Part shown: piece by piece, positions 1 through 5,877 of the stretch | Numbering within the stretch: position 1 is the stretch's first letter | Layout: every line of letters starts with the position of its first letter | Origin: an uncultured Actinomycetes bacterium | Lineage (GTDB): Bacteria > Actinomycetota > Thermoleophilia > Solirubrobacterales > Thermoleophilaceae | Assembly (NCBI GenBank): GCA_946481495.1 | Contig: CAMLNW010000078.1 | Coordinates: forward strand, 1 to 10,915 | Direction: 5' to 3' | DNA length: 10,915 bases | Made by a program: the position numbers and the translations under genes | Notes under the pieces: generated by a model | The model's input: only the letters and a program-made list of their open reading frames with translations | What the model was told of the DNA's origin: nothing | Database searches by the model: none

Positions 1-2532
1 GATCACGAGCTGTTCGTCGGCTCGGGCACCGAGCCGGTCACGGTCACCGCCGAGCGCGCCGGGCTCGACCCCGCGACCCAGTACTACTTCCGCGTCGTAG
101 CGACCAACGCCAATGGAACCACCATCGGTCCGGACCAGCCAGTCGAGACGCTCAACGAAGACGGACTCACCCAAGGCCGCCGCTACGAGCTCGTCTCACC
201 GGCCGACAAGGGTCCCGTCGGTGTGGCGGGGATTGGTACGGGTCTCAATAATCAGGTGATCGCGCAACCGTCTTCTGACGGTGGTGGGTTGGCGTATCTG
301 ATGGGTTTCGGTGCTACTGAGTCGACAAGTGGCGGTGAGGTGGCTTTCATGGCCAAGCGGGAGGCCGGTGGTTGGGCTTCGTCGCAGTTGTCGCCGTCGT
401 CGGTGGGTAATGATCCTTTGTACACGCCCTCGATTGCCCCGACGCGTGAGGTGTTCGTCGCACCGGATCACAGCTGTGGGTTCTTGTTGTCGGGGGTGGC
501 GCTTACCGACGATCCTGTAGCCAAGCAGTCGGCCGATGTCGGGATCTACAACATCTATCGCCGCAACAGCGACGGCAGTCTCGACCTCGTCCCGGGTGTC
601 GCCCCGACCAATCTACCGCCTGTTACGACTGGAGCCGTGGATCTCTATCAGTACACCTTCCACGGTGTCACTCCCGATTGTGACCGGGTGGTCTTCAGCA
701 GCATGCTGAAGTACCCGGGTGTCGACTTCAGTGGCGGCTCCAGTGCTTTCGCCCTCGGGCAGGGCTCGGGCTTGTATCTCTGGGATGACGACAGTGGGTT
801 GGAGAACCTGGGTGTCATTCCGGGGCCGTCGGGTCCGGAGGTGGCGGTGCCGGCAAAGCTCGGCGCCCCCCCGGGACAAATGTCCGGCGCAGTGGGTAGC
901 GACCAAGGTTCCCAGGATGCGGTGTCTGAGGATCTGCGGCGTGTGTTCTTCACCGCGATCAGCAAGGTGGGCGGCGACATCGACCGGGAGGCGGTGTTCA
1001 TGCGCGAGGACGGCGAGACGACCGTTGACGTGTCGCAGTCGCAGACCGCGACGCCCAACGACGACAACGCGCGCTACCAGATGACCACTCCGGACGGTGG
1101 GCATGTCTTCTTCACCGGCCGCTACGGGCTCGCCTCCAACGGCACCAGCACCGGGGCGACCACCTGCAACCAGCAGAACGGGGCGGGTTGCGACCTGTAT
1201 CGCTACTCGGCCGCGACCGGCACGCTGACCGACGTCTCCGCCGCCTCCGACCCCGCCAACACCCAGGGAGCGGGCGTGGTCGGAGTCCTCAACCTCTCCG
1301 ACGACGGGTCGCGCGTGTACTTCGCGGCTCGCGGCCAACTCGTCCCGGGCAAGGGCAAGACCCAGGCCCAGAACCTCGCCGGCACGCGCGGCTACAACCT
1401 CTACCTCTGGGACTCCGGGACGCTGTCGTATGTCGCGACAGTGCCGGAGACCGACGCGATTGGGGGCGGCGGGGGCGGCCACGTTGGGCTGCTGGCGTCT
1501 TATCTGAACACCAACATCACTATTGGTTGGCGTTCTGGCCTCACTCCGAGCGGCAGCCATCTGTTGTTCCAGTCGACGGGCAATTTGACCGGCGAGAACG
1601 CGAGTGGGCGTACGGAGGCCTACCGCTATAGCGCGGGGTCGGGCGAGCTCGTGTGTGTGTCGTGTCGTCGTGACGGGTTGGCTCCGAATCCGTCTCGGCA
1701 GCCTTTGCCCGGCCTGGAGGCTGCAGGGTGGGAGCTCGGTACGTGGCGTCCTTTGAAGGTGATCAGCGATGACGGTAGTCGTGTCTTGTTCTACAAGGCC
1801 GATCCGCTCGCGCCTGGCGCCCCGGAGGGCAGCGACCATGGTCTGTTCGAGTGGCATGACGGCCAGATCTCTCTGTTGGCGGCTACCGATAACGATGATC
1901 CTTCCCCTGGTTCGTCGGCGGTACGGATGGGTGGCGCCAGCGATGACATGGACAGCGTGTTCTTCACGACGCCGCAGTCGCTTGTCGGCCAGGACTTCGA
2001 CGGCCGCCAGGACTTCTATGTCGCACGTGTCGGCGGCGGGTTTGCCGATCCGCCGGCGCCGCCGACGCCGTGCGATCCGTTGAGCGACGGGTCGTGTCAG
2101 GGGCCGGGCGCCCCAGGCTCAGGTGGCGGCGATGCGGAGACATCGAAGCCGTCGAGTGATGGCGACGCCGACCAGGGGGCGCGTGCGGTGGTCAGCGTCG
2201 GCCGGTTCTCCGCTGCGGCCCGTCGCGCTCTGGCTAGTGGTCGCAGCGCGCGGCTGCGGCTTGTGGTCAACCGCCCTGGTGCCGTGAAGCTGGCGGCTAC
2301 GGCGAGGATCGCTAAGCGCGTACGGCGTGTTGGGTCGTCGTCGACTCGGGCTCGTAAGGCGGGCTCCGTGAGCGTTCCGTTGCGGCTGTCTCGGTCTGCT
2401 CTGGTCGAGCTTGGCCGTAGGGGTGAGCTTCGGGTGCGTGTCGCGGTCTCGTTGACTGGTGCTCGTCCGGGTGTTGTGTCGGTTGTGGTCAAGGCGCCAC
2501 CTACCAAGCGCAACGGGGGAGGTGCCCGATGA
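1..2532 (+). CDS. Large secreted-type protein: FN3 remnant, beta-propeller and basic C-terminal beta domain (5' partial)
   Basis: The frame is open from base 1, so the N-terminus and any signal peptide lie upstream; 843 residues are visible. Residues about 15-50 (GLDPATQYYFRVVATNANGT) are the C-terminal half of a fibronectin type III domain. From RYELVSP (about 61) to about 680 runs a propeller of the PD40/TolB-like kind, with blade-start motifs of the SDDGSRVxF type at about residues 92, 154, 224, 309, 363, 433, 515, 589 and 647. Each is usually followed by a YRYS, YLWD or FEWH strand. A Pro/Gly/Ser-rich linker contains C691 and C699, and a basic, strand-rich domain ends the protein (about 720-843). 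No enzymatic motif is seen; an extracellular or cell-envelope binding role is inferred. It resembles a family of large hypothetical proteins I associate with Solirubrobacterales. The GTG at 223 lies inside the open frame and is not the real start. The stop overlaps the next gene's ATG. Confidence 0.85.
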   Translation, partial: DHELFVGSGTEPVTVTAERAGLDPATQYYFRVVATNANGTTIGPDQPVETLNEDGLTQGRRYELVSPADKGPVGVAGIGTGLNNQVIAQPSSDGGGLAYLMGFGATESTSGGEVAFMAKREAGGWASSQLSPSSVGNDPLYTPSIAPTREVFVAPDHSCGFLLSGVALTDDPVAKQSADVGIYNIYRRNSDGSLDLVPGVAPTNLPPVTTGAVDLYQYTFHGVTPDCDRVVFSSMLKYPGVDFSGGSSAFALGQGSGLYLWDDDSGLENLGVIPGPSGPEVAVPAKLGAPPGQMSGAVGSDQGSQDAVSEDLRRVFFTAISKVGGDIDREAVFMREDGETTVDVSQSQTATPNDDNARYQMTTPDGGHVFFTGRYGLASNGTSTGATTCNQQNGAGCDLYRYSAATGTLTDVSAASDPANTQGAGVVGVLNLSDDGSRVYFAARGQLVPGKGKTQAQNLAGTRGYNLYLWDSGTLSYVATVPETDAIGGGGGGHVGLLASYLNTNITIGWRSGLTPSGSHLLFQSTGNLTGENASGRTEAYRYSAGSGELVCVSCRRDGLAPNPSRQPLPGLEAAGWELGTWRPLKVISDDGSRVLFYKADPLAPGAPEGSDHGLFEWHDGQISLLAATDNDDPSPGSSAVRMGGASDDMDSVFFTTPQSLVGQDFDGRQDFYVARVGGGFADPPAPPTPCDPLSDGSCQGPGAPGSGGGDAETSKPSSDGDADQGARAVVSVGRFSAAARRALASGRSARLRLVVNRPGAVKLAATARIAKRVRRVGSSSTRARKAGSVSVPLRLSRSALVELGRRGELRVRVAVSLTGARPGVVSVVVKAPPTKRNGGGAR
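271..2040 (+). repeat. Nine divergent propeller-blade repeats (protein level)
   Basis: The blade-start motif recurs as SSDGGG, APDHSC, TPDCDR, SEDLRR, TPDGGH, SDDGSR, TPSGSH, SDDGSR and SDDMDS, each followed by a hydrophobic strand such as RVYF, HVFF or RVLF. Spacing is 54 to 85 residues, with variable loops. The repeat is visible only in the protein; I see no long nucleotide identity between copies. Whether all nine form blades of one propeller cannot be settled from sequence alone. Confidence 0.65.
2515..2522 (+). promoter_or_regulatory. Strong Shine-Dalgarno (GGGGGAGG) for the downstream secreted protein
   Basis: The GGAGG core at 2518-2522 sits 6 nt before the ATG at 2529. The site lies inside the last codons of the upstream gene, and the start overlaps its stop as ATGA. 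This favours the ATG at 2529 over the later in-frame ATG at 2589 and implies translational coupling. Confidence 0.75.
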
Positions 2533-5500
2533 CCGTCTCGTTGATGGCCCGTCGTTTCTTCTCACCTCACGCCGAAAGCGAGAACCGCATGACACGCACC
2601 CCCACAGCGACAGTGGCAGCGACGACGACGATTGCGGTTGTGGTCGCGTTGTTGGCGGCGCTTGCGTTTGCGTCTGTTGCGCAGGCCGCGTCGCCGGCGT
2701 GGCGGGTGATCGGGACGAGTGGCCCGACGCACCTCCCGCCGGCCGGTGTCCCGGGGCCGACCGGCCCCGGGACGGGTGTGCTTGGGATCTATGCGACCAA
2801 CGTCGGTGGTCAGAACACCAGCGGGACGATCACCCTGGACATCGGGCCGTTGCCGGCAGGGATCACGACCGCCGCGACCCCGGCGGGGCTGGGCTGGTCG
2901 TGTCTGCCGGCCGGGGCGGGTCAGAGCAGCGTGAGTTGCACGTATACTGCCTCGGTGCCTGCGGGGTTCAACGCGCCGGGGCTGCGGGTGCCGGTTGCGA
3001 TGGGACCGACGGCGCCTGCGAGCTCGAGCGTTGAGATCTCCGTGGAGGGTGGCGGGGCGCCGGCCGACCCGCTTGGCAATGACACTTACACGATGCCGCT
3101 GACGGTGTCGGCGGAGCCCGCCGAGGCTGGTGTGGAGGCGTTCTGGGCGGGTGCGTTCGATGAGAACGGCCAGCCCGCGACCCAGGCGGGCAGTCATCCC
3201 GCTCGTGCGATCGCGATGTTCTTCTTCAACAGCGAGTTCCGCGAGGGCGTTGGCAGCACCGATCAGCCCTTTCAGGGTGTCGCGGCAACGGGTGTCGTCC
3301 CGGTCGGTGACGCGCGGCAGATCGACCTCGATCTGCCGGTCGGTTTCGTCGGGAATCCGATGGTGACTATGCGCTGCCCGCAGACCAAGCCGGATCGCTG
3401 CTCAAACGATGCGCTGGTCGGCCAGATCTTCCCGCAGATCCTAGGTTTCACCGAGGACGTCGGCGTGGGCTACTCGGGCTTCGGCAGCCAAGGCCACCTC
3501 TTCAACACCGAGCCGGCTACCGGCCATCCCGCCCAGCTAACGCTCACCTACCAGACCACCAGAGCGAGCGTCATGGCGTCGTTGCGTCCTGACGACTACG
3601 GAGTGACCGCGATCTCACCGAACATCCCTCAATTCGCGCGCTTCTCAGCCGCCCACTCGCTGATCGAGGGCATCCCGCAGGCTTCTGGCGGCAAGCCGTT
3701 CTTCACCAACCCGACCGACTGCTCAGGTGTCGCGCTGACCACGTCGATCACGATGTCGACTTGGCAGGCGCCAACACTGTTCTCACCCCTGGTGAGCTCA
3801 CCCTCACCCGCGATCACTGGTTGTGAGTTGGTGCCGTTTGAGCCGGACGCGACCGTCGCACCGACGTCGACCGGTCGTGATTCGGCGTCGGGTCTCGATT
3901 TCGACGTGACGCTGCCCCAGGACGGCTTGTTGGATCCTGACGAGCTCGCTACCAGCCACCTCAAGGATGTCGTCGTCGATCTCCCGGAGGGTATGTCGGT
4001 CAACCCGTCGGGTGCGACGGGCTTGAAGGGCTGCTCGGACGCCCAGATGCAGGTTGGGTCGAAGTCTGCGCCGACGTGTCCGGATGGGTCGAAGCTCGGG
4101 ACGGTGGAGATCACTTCGCCGCTTGTGGATCGTGCGATCGGCGGCACGATGTATCTCGGTGTGCCGAAGTCGACGGATCCGATGTCGGGTGAGATGCTGC
4201 GGTTGTTCGTCGTCGCTCGCGACGACGACCTCGGGATCATGGTCAAGCTGCCCGGGTCGGCGACCGCCGACCCCCAGACGGGGAAGTTGACCGCGACGTT
4301 CGAGAACAACCCACGCCTCCCGTTCGACCAGTTGAGCGTGAAGTTGCGCGGTGGGGATCGTGGTGTGCTCGCTACCCCTCAGGCTTGTGGTCCGCGGTCG
4401 ATTTCGGCGGAGTTGTCGCCTTGGTCGGGTAATGCGGCGGTGACGGAGTCGACGTCGACTGACTACGCCGGCGACTGCAGCTTCGGGTTCGCGCCGAAGC
4501 TCGCTGCCGGGATGAGCAGCCAGAAGGCTCGCGGCAGTGGGTCGTTCAGTTTCCGGTTCTCGCGCCAGGATGGCGAGCAGTGGATCGACGGCTTGACCGC
4601 CAGTCTGCCAAGAGGTTTGCTCGCGAGCGTCAAGGATCTTCCGTTGTGCTCTAGCGGCCAGGCTGCGGCGGGCGCTTGTCCGGCCGGGAGCCGGATCGGG
4701 TCGGTTGACGCGACCGCCGGCTCTGGCAATCCGTTCGTGTTGGAGCAGAAGGGCCAGGCGTTTTTGACCGAGGGCTACAAGGGTTGCCCCTACGGCCTAG
4801 CCGTGGTCGTCCCGGTGATCGCCGGACCGTTCGACGGCACGACGCCGGAGACCGATCTCGGTGACATCGTCGTCCGCCAATCGGTGTGTGTCGATCGTTC
4901 GACCGCGCAGGTGTCGGCGATCAGTGATCCGTTGCCGACGATCTGGCACGGCGTCCCGCTACGCGTCCGGTCGGTGACCGTCAACATCGACAGGCCCGGG
5001 TTCATGCTCAACCCCTCCGACTGCTCGGCCAAGCAAGTCGGCGGCAAGTTCCACTCCGCCAACGGATCGACCGCCGGAGCGGACACTCCGTTCCAGACCT
5101 CAGGGTGCGCCGCTCTGCCGTTCAAGCCGACCCTCGCGTTGAGCTTGACCGGTCGCAAGCAGGTCACGACCGGCAAGCATCCCGGTGTCAAGGCGACCGT
5201 CACCCAACAGGGTGTCGGCGAGGCGGGGATCGAGAAGGCCGTCGTCCGGCTGCCGAAGAGCCTCGCTTTGGATCCCGACAACGCTCAGGCGTTGTGCGAG
5301 TTCGTCGATGGCACCAAGCCCGATCTCGAGAACCACTGCCCGAAGGGCAGCATCGTCGGACGGGCCAGGGCCGTCTCGCCGCTGCTAAACCAGCCGCTGA
5401 CGGGGAACGTGTACTTCGTCAAGAACATCCGCACAGACCCCACGACCGGCAACCAGATCCGGACGCTGCCGATGATCATCGTCGCGCTCCGCGGCGAGAT

Positions 5501-5822
5501 CGCCGTCAACCTCCGCGGCGAGTCGTCGACGACCAAGGGCGGCAAGCTGGTCAACACGTTCGCCAACGTCCCAGACGCGCCGATCAGCCAGTTCAACCTC
5601 AACATCCAGGGCGGCAACACCGGCATCCTCGCCGTCACCCGCACCCGCCGGGCCAAGATCAACCTCTGCACACGACGCCACACCGCAGAGACCGACATGG
5701 ACGCACAAAACGGACGCCGACACGACTTCGACGTCCAGATGAAGACCCCGTGCACCAAGAAACAGACCAAAGCCGCCAAACGCCAAGCAAAACGCGCAGC
5801 GGCCAAGGCCCAGCGCGGCTAG
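2529..5822 (+). CDS. Secreted tandem-module protein with DUF11-like N-terminus and four Cys-framed repeats
   Basis: This 1097-residue protein has a signal peptide: hydrophobic core about residues 35-50, probable cleavage after AQA at 53. Residues about 56-200 resemble a DUF11-type beta domain (PLPAGITTA, C125 and C137). Four modules of about 210 residues follow. Their LP strand motifs lie at 269-270 (LDLPVGF), 485-486 (VVDLPEGM), 693-694 (TASLPRGL) and 908-909 (VVRLPKSL). Each has the same cysteine framework: 283/291/398/432, 502/517/620/650, 707/717/832/860 and 923/937/1047/1075. Modules 1 and 3 share NP[TS]DCS; modules 2 and 4 share GKLxxTF and GGxxGxLA. The last about 22 residues are Lys/Arg/Ala-rich, with no LPXTG motif or C-terminal membrane segment. 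The protein has 20 cysteines, all assignable to these pairs or one extra pair in module 3. I do not recognise the module as a named family; a structural envelope or surface role is inferred. The alternative start at 2589 would give a more usual signal peptide length but has only a weak ribosome site. Confidence 0.9.
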   Translation: MTVSLMARRFFSPHAESENRMTRTPTATVAATTTIAVVVALLAALAFASVAQAASPAWRVIGTSGPTHLPPAGVPGPTGPGTGVLGIYATNVGGQNTSGTITLDIGPLPAGITTAATPAGLGWSCLPAGAGQSSVSCTYTASVPAGFNAPGLRVPVAMGPTAPASSSVEISVEGGGAPADPLGNDTYTMPLTVSAEPAEAGVEAFWAGAFDENGQPATQAGSHPARAIAMFFFNSEFREGVGSTDQPFQGVAATGVVPVGDARQIDLDLPVGFVGNPMVTMRCPQTKPDRCSNDALVGQIFPQILGFTEDVGVGYSGFGSQGHLFNTEPATGHPAQLTLTYQTTRASVMASLRPDDYGVTAISPNIPQFARFSAAHSLIEGIPQASGGKPFFTNPTDCSGVALTTSITMSTWQAPTLFSPLVSSPSPAITGCELVPFEPDATVAPTSTGRDSASGLDFDVTLPQDGLLDPDELATSHLKDVVVDLPEGMSVNPSGATGLKGCSDAQMQVGSKSAPTCPDGSKLGTVEITSPLVDRAIGGTMYLGVPKSTDPMSGEMLRLFVVARDDDLGIMVKLPGSATADPQTGKLTATFENNPRLPFDQLSVKLRGGDRGVLATPQACGPRSISAELSPWSGNAAVTESTSTDYAGDCSFGFAPKLAAGMSSQKARGSGSFSFRFSRQDGEQWIDGLTASLPRGLLASVKDLPLCSSGQAAAGACPAGSRIGSVDATAGSGNPFVLEQKGQAFLTEGYKGCPYGLAVVVPVIAGPFDGTTPETDLGDIVVRQSVCVDRSTAQVSAISDPLPTIWHGVPLRVRSVTVNIDRPGFMLNPSDCSAKQVGGKFHSANGSTAGADTPFQTSGCAALPFKPTLALSLTGRKQVTTGKHPGVKATVTQQGVGEAGIEKAVVRLPKSLALDPDNAQALCEFVDGTKPDLENHCPKGSIVGRARAVSPLLNQPLTGNVYFVKNIRTDPTTGNQIRTLPMIIVALRGEIAVNLRGESSTTKGGKLVNTFANVPDAPISQFNLNIQGGNTGILAVTRTRRAKINLCTRRHTAETDMDAQNGRRHDFDVQMKTPCTKKQTKAAKRQAKRAAAKAQRG
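3180..5755 (+). repeat. Four tandem ~210-residue modules in A-B-A-B order
   Basis: The intervals between the conserved LP motifs are 216, 208 and 215 residues; one-to-three and two-to-four intervals are 424 and 423. A hand alignment of 31 ungapped residues starting at G585 (module 2) and G1005 (module 4) gives 14 identities. Modules 1 and 3 share the third-cysteine motif NP[TS]DCS and a fourth cysteine followed by [LV]PF[EK]P. All four share C-x6-[VIL]-G at the second cysteine (CSNDALVG, CPDGSKLG, CPAGSRIG, CPKGSIVG). This fits duplication of a two-module unit. Outer boundaries are approximate. Confidence 0.75.
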
Positions 5823-5849: not shown

Positions 5850-5877
5850 AAGGGGCCGGCCACCGCGGCGGCCCCTT
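5850..5877. terminator. Hairpin between convergent genes, possible bidirectional terminator
   Basis: AAGGGGCCG at 5850-5858 is perfectly complementary to CGGCCCCTT at 5869-5877, giving a 9-bp GC-rich stem with a 10-nt loop. It lies between the stop of the module protein (5822) and the convergent stop of the SRPBCC gene (5887). Neither side has a clean U-tract. Read on the - strand, the stem is followed by a moderately T-rich TTTGCCTTTCC; read on the + strand, by TCGCCCTCCTT after the stem's final T. Termination is inferred from structure and position. Confidence 0.6.

Follow-up and report, generated by a model that had tools for sequence, protein, structure and literature searches.

The 10,915-nucleotide stretch analysed here (the window), from contig CAMLNW010000078.1 of an uncultured Solirubrobacterales bacterium, contains a forward-strand gene, referred to as the rod gene, whose open reading frame spans positions 2529–5822 in the open-frame listing and encodes 1097 amino acids. 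The product harbors four homologous modules of two types in the order A-B-A-B, each with two pairs of cysteines, and the repeated module is an unnamed, probably Ig-like domain. Computational comparison with relatives establishes the homology of the modules, an array plan of the form A-(B-A)n-B, the pairing pattern of the cysteines, the predicted fold, and the pairing of such genes with an upstream gene for a propeller-like protein.

Four homologous modules with paired cysteines

Module 1 (M1, type A, N-terminal form) comprises residues 215–443 (window positions 3171–3857) with cysteines 283, 291, 398, and 432. It is followed by M2 (type B, internal form; residues 444–655, positions 3858–4493; cysteines 502, 517, 620, and 650), M3 (type A, internal form; residues 656–868, positions 4494–5132; cysteines 707, 717, 832, and 860, as well as an extra pair at 753 and 787), and M4 (type B, C-terminal form; residues 869–1076, positions 5133–5756; cysteines 923, 937, 1047, and 1075). 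The original prediction, made from the letters alone, had observed four related modules in A-B-A-B order with a four-cysteine framework, and this is confirmed. The C1–C2 distances are 8, 15, 10, and 14 residues, the C2–C3 distances 107, 103, 115, and 110, and the C3–C4 distances 34, 30, 28, and 28. LP motifs at residues 269, 485, 693, and 908 are spaced by 216, 208, and 215 residues, such that alternate modules lie 424 and 423 residues apart. M1 and M3 share the motif NP[TS]DCS (NPTDCS at 394 and NPSDCS at 828), while M2 and M4 share GKLxxTF and GGxxGxLA (GKLTATF and GGDRGVLA in M2; GKLVNTF and GGNTGILA in M4).

The relationship between the modules was assessed in an alignment of the best 120 of 134 homologues (31–71% identity in local alignments, window protein included), which was divided into modules for profile–profile comparison. 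All six module pairs align, with E values of 4.1e-25 (M2–M4), 2e-17 (M1–M3), 6e-16 (M2–M3), 2e-14 (M1–M2), 1e-8 (M3–M4), and 1.9e-5 (M1–M4), and the A modules are closest to each other, as are the B modules. Reversed and column-shuffled controls for ten pairings, those with the N-terminal domain among them, gave E values of 0.027 or worse and rule out a chance repeat. The N-terminal domain shows no relation to the modules by profile comparison (best E value of 0.06). Repeats at the DNA level in the window are short and weak, and the duplication of the module is therefore probably old.

The module had been proposed to lack a named family, and the window protein indeed matches nothing in Pfam, NCBIfam, or PHROGs, while sequence searches of the Protein Data Bank (PDB) returned only chance-level rows. 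Among 88 short family members, Pfam matched RibLong, Filamin, and SlpA_C in one member each. Among 38 longer members, it matched DUF11 in eight, Ig_2 in two, and NHL, SGL, and DUF7890 in one each; the Ig_2 match of one relative (P0096, residues 202–273) precedes its modules.

The AlphaFold2 model of the window protein has a predicted local distance difference test score (pLDDT) of 90.4 and a predicted template modeling score (pTM) of 0.79; the model of a shorter relative containing a single A-B pair (n = 0, see below) scores 92.9 and 0.87, respectively. A fold search with the 1097-residue model mostly probed the N-terminal domain, which has the CLIPPER fold. With the A-B model, the modules are nearest, among the matches listed, to domains of Ace, Cnm, antigen I/II, PrgB, and pilins, and a type II cohesin dyad also appears among the Foldseek matches. 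In these models, the module fold resembles an adhesin- or pilin-type Ig-like sandwich and, broadly taken, is no novelty. The search of viral structures gave only weak, mostly multi-domain matches.

The cysteine framework is strongly conserved. Each of the 16 module cysteines is kept in 112–120 of the 120 homologues, and 102 homologues have all 16 in the aligned columns. Single-sided exceptions are found in the C1–C2 pair of M1 (seven) and the C3–C4 pair of M2 (seven); a nearby cysteine is present in all 14, and these look like alignment shifts. Further exceptions are the C3–C4 pair of M1 in P0120, that of M4 in P0082, and eight in the N-terminal domain pair. The family-wide spacing is looser than that of the window protein, with 6–54 (C1–C2), 93–165 (C2–C3), and 27–60 residues (C3–C4). 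Two pairs go beyond those originally described, i.e., cysteines 125 and 137 of the N-terminal domain and cysteines 753 and 787 of M3 (window positions 4785–4889). Both members of the latter are present in 26 of the 120 homologues and both are absent in 94, with no single-sided case (Fisher p of 7e-27, uncorrected for relatedness).

The predicted C1–C2 and C3–C4 pairing is consistent with the co-occurrence of partners and, indirectly, with the models. C3 and C4 lie opposite each other on the closing hairpin in all four modules and in both modules of the n = 0 protein, with the register of the model strands within 0–3 residues. The offsets are −3, 1, 1, and −1 for M1–M4, 1 for the N-terminal domain pair, −1 for the extra pair, and 0 and −1 for the n = 0 model. 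C1 and C2 stand at either side of the loop that joins the LP strand to the following strand and contains short helices. The disulfides at C1–C2 and C3–C4 remain predictions. In the passages of PMC9974433 drawn on here, actinobacterial exported proteins, including pilins, undergo oxidative folding; about 60% of the exported proteins of such actinobacteria have even cysteine counts, and pilins require an oxidoreductase. VKOR genes are found in 43 of the 48 module-bearing genomes of the class survey described below vs 124 of the 251 others, a comparison confounded by relatedness and assembly completeness.

Array plan and distribution

Module profiles were run on stop-to-stop open frames of the fetched loci and on the 120 homologues. 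Most of the complete relatives read A-(B-A)n-B, i.e., 1-(2-3)n-4, with distinct terminal modules. Ten proteins of 500–770 amino acids in loci L032–L040 and one more in L087 have n = 0, while the window protein and the majority of the others have n = 1. Three giants extend the series: G131 encodes 7,223 amino acids with 32 modules (n = 15), G128 5,628 with 24 modules (n = 11), and G176 4,643 with 20 modules (n = 9), counts that take M1 as one module despite a split or mixed match. The sample, which was not designed to measure n, contains no value from 2 to 8. The order 1-2-3-4 is found in 118 of the 120 homologues (in ten with one match split in two), and the other two are incomplete by module matches. 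The giants (L029 and L088 in G131, L030 in G128, and L031 and L056 in G176) consist mostly of alternating B and A modules and have a lysine-rich C-terminal region.

The array plan is not universal. The giant-bearing genomes also hold proteins in which two A-B pairs flank a stretch of about 230 amino acids (neighbors in L089, L090, and L091), with type labels that are less clear, and some in which A-B is accompanied by a long unmatched part. The M1 match is missing at a few loci (L044 and L079).

A tree of 65 selected modules (from eight homologues, six n = 0 proteins, and three copies per internal type from the three giants) was computed by a quick IQ-TREE run with support from the Shimodaira–Hasegawa-like approximate likelihood ratio test (SH-aLRT) only and no bootstrap. 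The A and B modules fall on opposite sides of one branch (SH-aLRT of 99), and internal B separates from terminal B (90 and 96). The M1 modules group together (99), and those of type A from the n = 0 proteins take no resolved position. Since the first A, internal B, internal A, and last B mostly form their own groups, the array is best described as a terminal A and a terminal B around one internal B-A. The duplicated two-module unit proposed originally is supported by the A/B split and by the free-standing A-B proteins, and is refined by this plan, with one internal B-A here and 9–15 in the three giants. Copies sampled from the start, middle, and end of the giant arrays cluster by position across genomes and not by genome, and hence these arrays look old; the mean identity of the giants' M2- and M3-type modules is 27%.

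The family belongs to a class that is common in soil and little cultivated. Among 299 genomes of the class of a Solirubrobacterales metagenome-assembled genome (MAG), profile A2 matched 68, of which 48 have a clear module match as read from the match table; three more (G170, G239, and G259) have weak matches in the module region, and the remainder match in the N-terminal domain only. In a survey of 396 genomes of the phylum, 24 matched the profile. Module matches occur in only four of these, each of which is among the 299 as well (G001, G048, G054, and G066), while the other 20 match in the N-terminal domain region (profile positions up to 199). Clear module matches outside the class therefore number zero among the 396 phylum genomes with the top two candidates per genome scored. 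Because both surveys scored two candidates per genome, additional or weaker copies may have escaped detection.

With all candidates scored, G001 has 14 matches, ten of which cover at least 700 of the 1040 profile positions, and four genomes have 5, 9, 9, and 5 matches, read as about 22 family genes. The first scan of genome contigs gave no match and the second four loci of one MAG, while the short form, used as a query, returned 805 matches, the best 120 of which are listed; lengths of up to 1.75 times the query were included, so that some longer members are among them. A viral origin was rejected, as no relative was confirmed in the scan of viral contigs and the viral structure matches are weak.

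Gene layout, export, and the upstream gene

The N-terminus of the window protein carries a predicted export signal at approximately residues 1–54 (positions 2529–2690), assigned by Kyte–Doolittle hydropathy. The peak over 19 residues is 2.42 within residues 21–60, and 112 of the 120 homologues exceed 1.6 within their first 80 residues. Export, as originally proposed, is thus borne out at the level of simple hydropathy. An alternative start, M21, lies at position 2589.

The signal is followed by an N-terminal beta-sandwich domain (residues 51–195, positions 2679–3113) with a DUF11/CLIPPER-like fold and the cysteine pair 125/137. There is no lysine in residues 50–195; a Lys–Asn isopeptide bond cannot form there and is excluded for this domain. 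According to the part of PMC12617251 used here, the intramolecular Lys–Asn isopeptide bond is not universal in the DUF11/CLIPPER family. Within the modules, M1 contains only two lysines, while K573 of M2 is near-invariant (97% of the 120 homologues) and is a possible candidate isopeptide lysine.

The C-terminus (residues 1077–1097 with the stop codon, positions 5757–5822) is a tail rich in lysine, arginine, and alanine, with a predicted helix at residues 1077–1096. A basic tail, defined as at least eight residues with a net charge above 0.25 per residue, is present in 98 of the 116 homologues that have the last cysteine. The sortase motif LPxT[GASN] was found in the last 60 residues of none of the 120 homologues (other sortase motifs were not searched), and none has a transmembrane-like stretch in its last 80 residues. 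A GC-rich inverted repeat without a T run lies at positions 5852–5875, about 30 nucleotides past the stop codon, and is absent from the terminator scan output.

Directly upstream, on the same strand, positions 1–2532 hold a partner gene whose 5′ end lies beyond the window and which encodes the end of an FN3-like domain, a propeller-like region, and a basic C-terminal region. Its stop codon and the start codon of the rod gene overlap in ATGA (positions 2529–2532), and a Shine–Dalgarno-like GGGGGAGG lies at positions 2515–2522, 6 nucleotides 5′ of the ATG at 2529. As judged from the sequence, this arrangement would allow translational coupling of the two genes through the overlap. The window copy of the upstream gene matches PD40 at an E value of 0.17 only. 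Among eight of its relatives, Pfam finds PD40 in four (two above the curated cut-off), NHL in two, FN3-like domains in two, and nothing in three, such that "propeller" is a family-level prediction.

The pairing of the two genes was examined with a partner query from G199 (L041:8192-10564). In the four genomes with all candidates scored, 12 partner-gene homologues were detected, and every one of the 12 is followed directly by a family gene on the same strand, with −101 to 264 nucleotides between the match ends; from the side of the family genes, 12 of approximately 22 are paired. Among n = 1 genes preceded by 1200 base pairs or more of sequence, 25 of 45 are paired by a strict rule and 27 when two overlapping cases (L001 and L070) are added, although several loci come from the same genome and the counts are not independent. 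None of the 11 n = 0 loci has a partner gene. In L062, the partner is found downstream only, and L075 has a weaker match some 1.3 kb upstream. In one relative, P0117, an N-terminal NHL propeller is fused to four modules in a single chain; an SGL (gluconolactonase-like) match overlaps this propeller, and both precede the modules.

Propeller-like upstream neighbors are seen in the window (positions 1–2532) and in L041, L043, L047, L059, L061, L063, L066, and L071–L073. The SRPBCC, amidase, lactone oxidase, and hydrolase genes of the window have no match among the open frames of the 48 loci searched. An open frame neighboring the family gene in L037 (7414–8361) contains cysteine clusters of the CCEPE/CCGD type and is apparently unrelated to the modules.

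Interpretation and comparison with known systems

On balance, we lean toward a Sec-exported extracellular rod that serves as the disulfide-stapled stalk of a surface adhesin with a propeller-like partner; the original interpretation is supported and extended. The exported chain would comprise the N-terminal DUF11/CLIPPER-like domain and four Ig-like modules arranged as A-cap, B, A, and B-cap. Each module would be clamped by two disulfides, with C1–C2 pinning the loop after the LP strand and C3–C4 stapling the open end of the last beta-hairpin. These disulfides may replace the Lys–Asn isopeptide bonds of many Gram-positive adhesins and pilins, affording a stiff, protease-resistant stalk outside the cell that could be lengthened by inserting internal B-A pairs between A-cap and B-cap. 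The basic tail is envisaged to retain the protein on anionic wall polymers without sortase. The upstream propeller-like protein would be the most likely partner, either as a ligand-binding head or as a co-assembled component, so that the two genes would form an adhesion or capture unit, of which a genome carries several diverged copies. A broader proposal, which we put forward only tentatively, is a surface fiber system specific to the class of Solirubrobacterales, in which A-cap-(B-A)n-B-cap rods, with two disulfides per module instead of isopeptide bonds and a length governed by n, would act together with a dedicated secreted beta-propeller encoded directly upstream and provide several specificities per cell for adhesion or capture.

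A nutrient-capture scaffold, in which modules and propeller would bind polysaccharide or protein debris outside the cell and pass it on to the cell and paralogous pairs would serve different substrates, could also account for the occurrence of multiple diverged paralogues in one genome (14 matches in G001 and about 22 genes in four genomes), the propeller-like partners, and the type II cohesin dyad retrieved by Foldseek. We regard it as rather unlikely: Pfam finds no carbohydrate-binding domain in 126 members, and the only enzyme family it finds there is SGL, over the NHL propeller of P0117. It is less likely still that the rods pack laterally into a structural coat, i.e., an S-layer-like matrix or spore-like coat, without specific adhesion. 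The many diverged copies per genome, with no single dominant one, and the patchy presence in 48 of 299 class genomes disagree with such a coat, although the very long forms of up to 32 modules, the basic tail with no sortase motif, and the one stray SlpA_C match in 88 short relatives count in its favor.

Conserved polar residues, namely K573, R679, R783, D800, and N828 (each in at least 96% of the 120 homologues), could be taken for an unrecognised active site of a secreted enzyme or inhibitor. However, the conserved set is mostly glycine, proline, and cysteine, and the structural matches are Ig-like binding or stalk domains, making this reading very improbable; N828 sits in the NPxDCS motif common to M1 and M3. 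Finally, an exported protein of low complexity, with cysteines and LP motifs spaced by chance, would fit the low module identity (as in the giants) and the short, weak DNA repeats, but this reading is rendered negligible by the profile comparisons with their controls, the conservation across 120 homologues, and the high-confidence model.

The stalk of a surface adhesin remains our preferred reading. Proteins with the module make up a large family that lacks annotation, and two profile models, one each for A and B, would allow them to be named. The family offers a natural comparison, an Ig-like stalk that apparently relies on conserved disulfides in place of the isopeptide bonds of many Gram-positive adhesins and that follows a simple length rule. 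The propeller pairing provides a testable two-component hypothesis for many pairs of "hypothetical proteins". Among open-access literature on Solirubrobacterales or Thermoleophilia surface proteins, fibrillar adhesins, CLIPPER, and oxidative folding, no title among those listed describes the family, and the adhesin mentions in the portion of PMC9903846 consulted do not concern the class of Solirubrobacterales.

The closest described counterpart of the N-terminal domain is DUF11/CLIPPER (PF01345; 9IFR, PMC12617251), with which it shares the fold; as far as the cited portion of that paper allows a comparison, the domain here differs in its lack of lysine and its conserved cysteine pair. This likeness does not extend to the repeated module. 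The modules resemble Ace, Cnm, the antigen I/II C-terminal domains (AspA, BspA, and P1), PrgB, PilB, and GBS80 in forming tandem beta-sandwiches in extracellular chains, while no sequence match to any described CnaA-like or DE-variant IgG family was found in Pfam, NCBIfam, PHROG, or PDB sequence searches.

In the sections of PMC9974433 cited above, MdbA-oxidised actinobacterial pilins are likewise exported surface proteins held by disulfides, which are predicted in the present case. Unlike these pilins, the family shows no sign of sortase polymerisation: an LPxTG-type signal with a transmembrane helix, as in sortase-assembled pilins, is found in none of the 120 relatives.

Fibrillar adhesins and periscope proteins, as described in the excerpts of PMC9210967 and PMC12617251 considered, share with the window protein a long exported multidomain chain, variable tandem stalk-like domains, and a DUF11-type domain. 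The length and stalk features given in PMC9210967 are seen in its 1097 amino acids and four homologous modules (up to 32 in relatives), the rod shape itself being predicted, and export, which is implied for such proteins beyond that passage, is indicated by hydropathy. In contrast to these proteins, no covalent anchor motif was found, and Pfam detects no known adhesive domain in 126 family members; the upstream partner may supply the adhesion region. Furthermore, the modules sampled here are old and specific to their position, and are not near-identical repeats. A tandem-domain surface stalk is of a known kind, and what is new is the disulfide-stapled A-(B-A)n-B plan together with its linked propeller-like gene.

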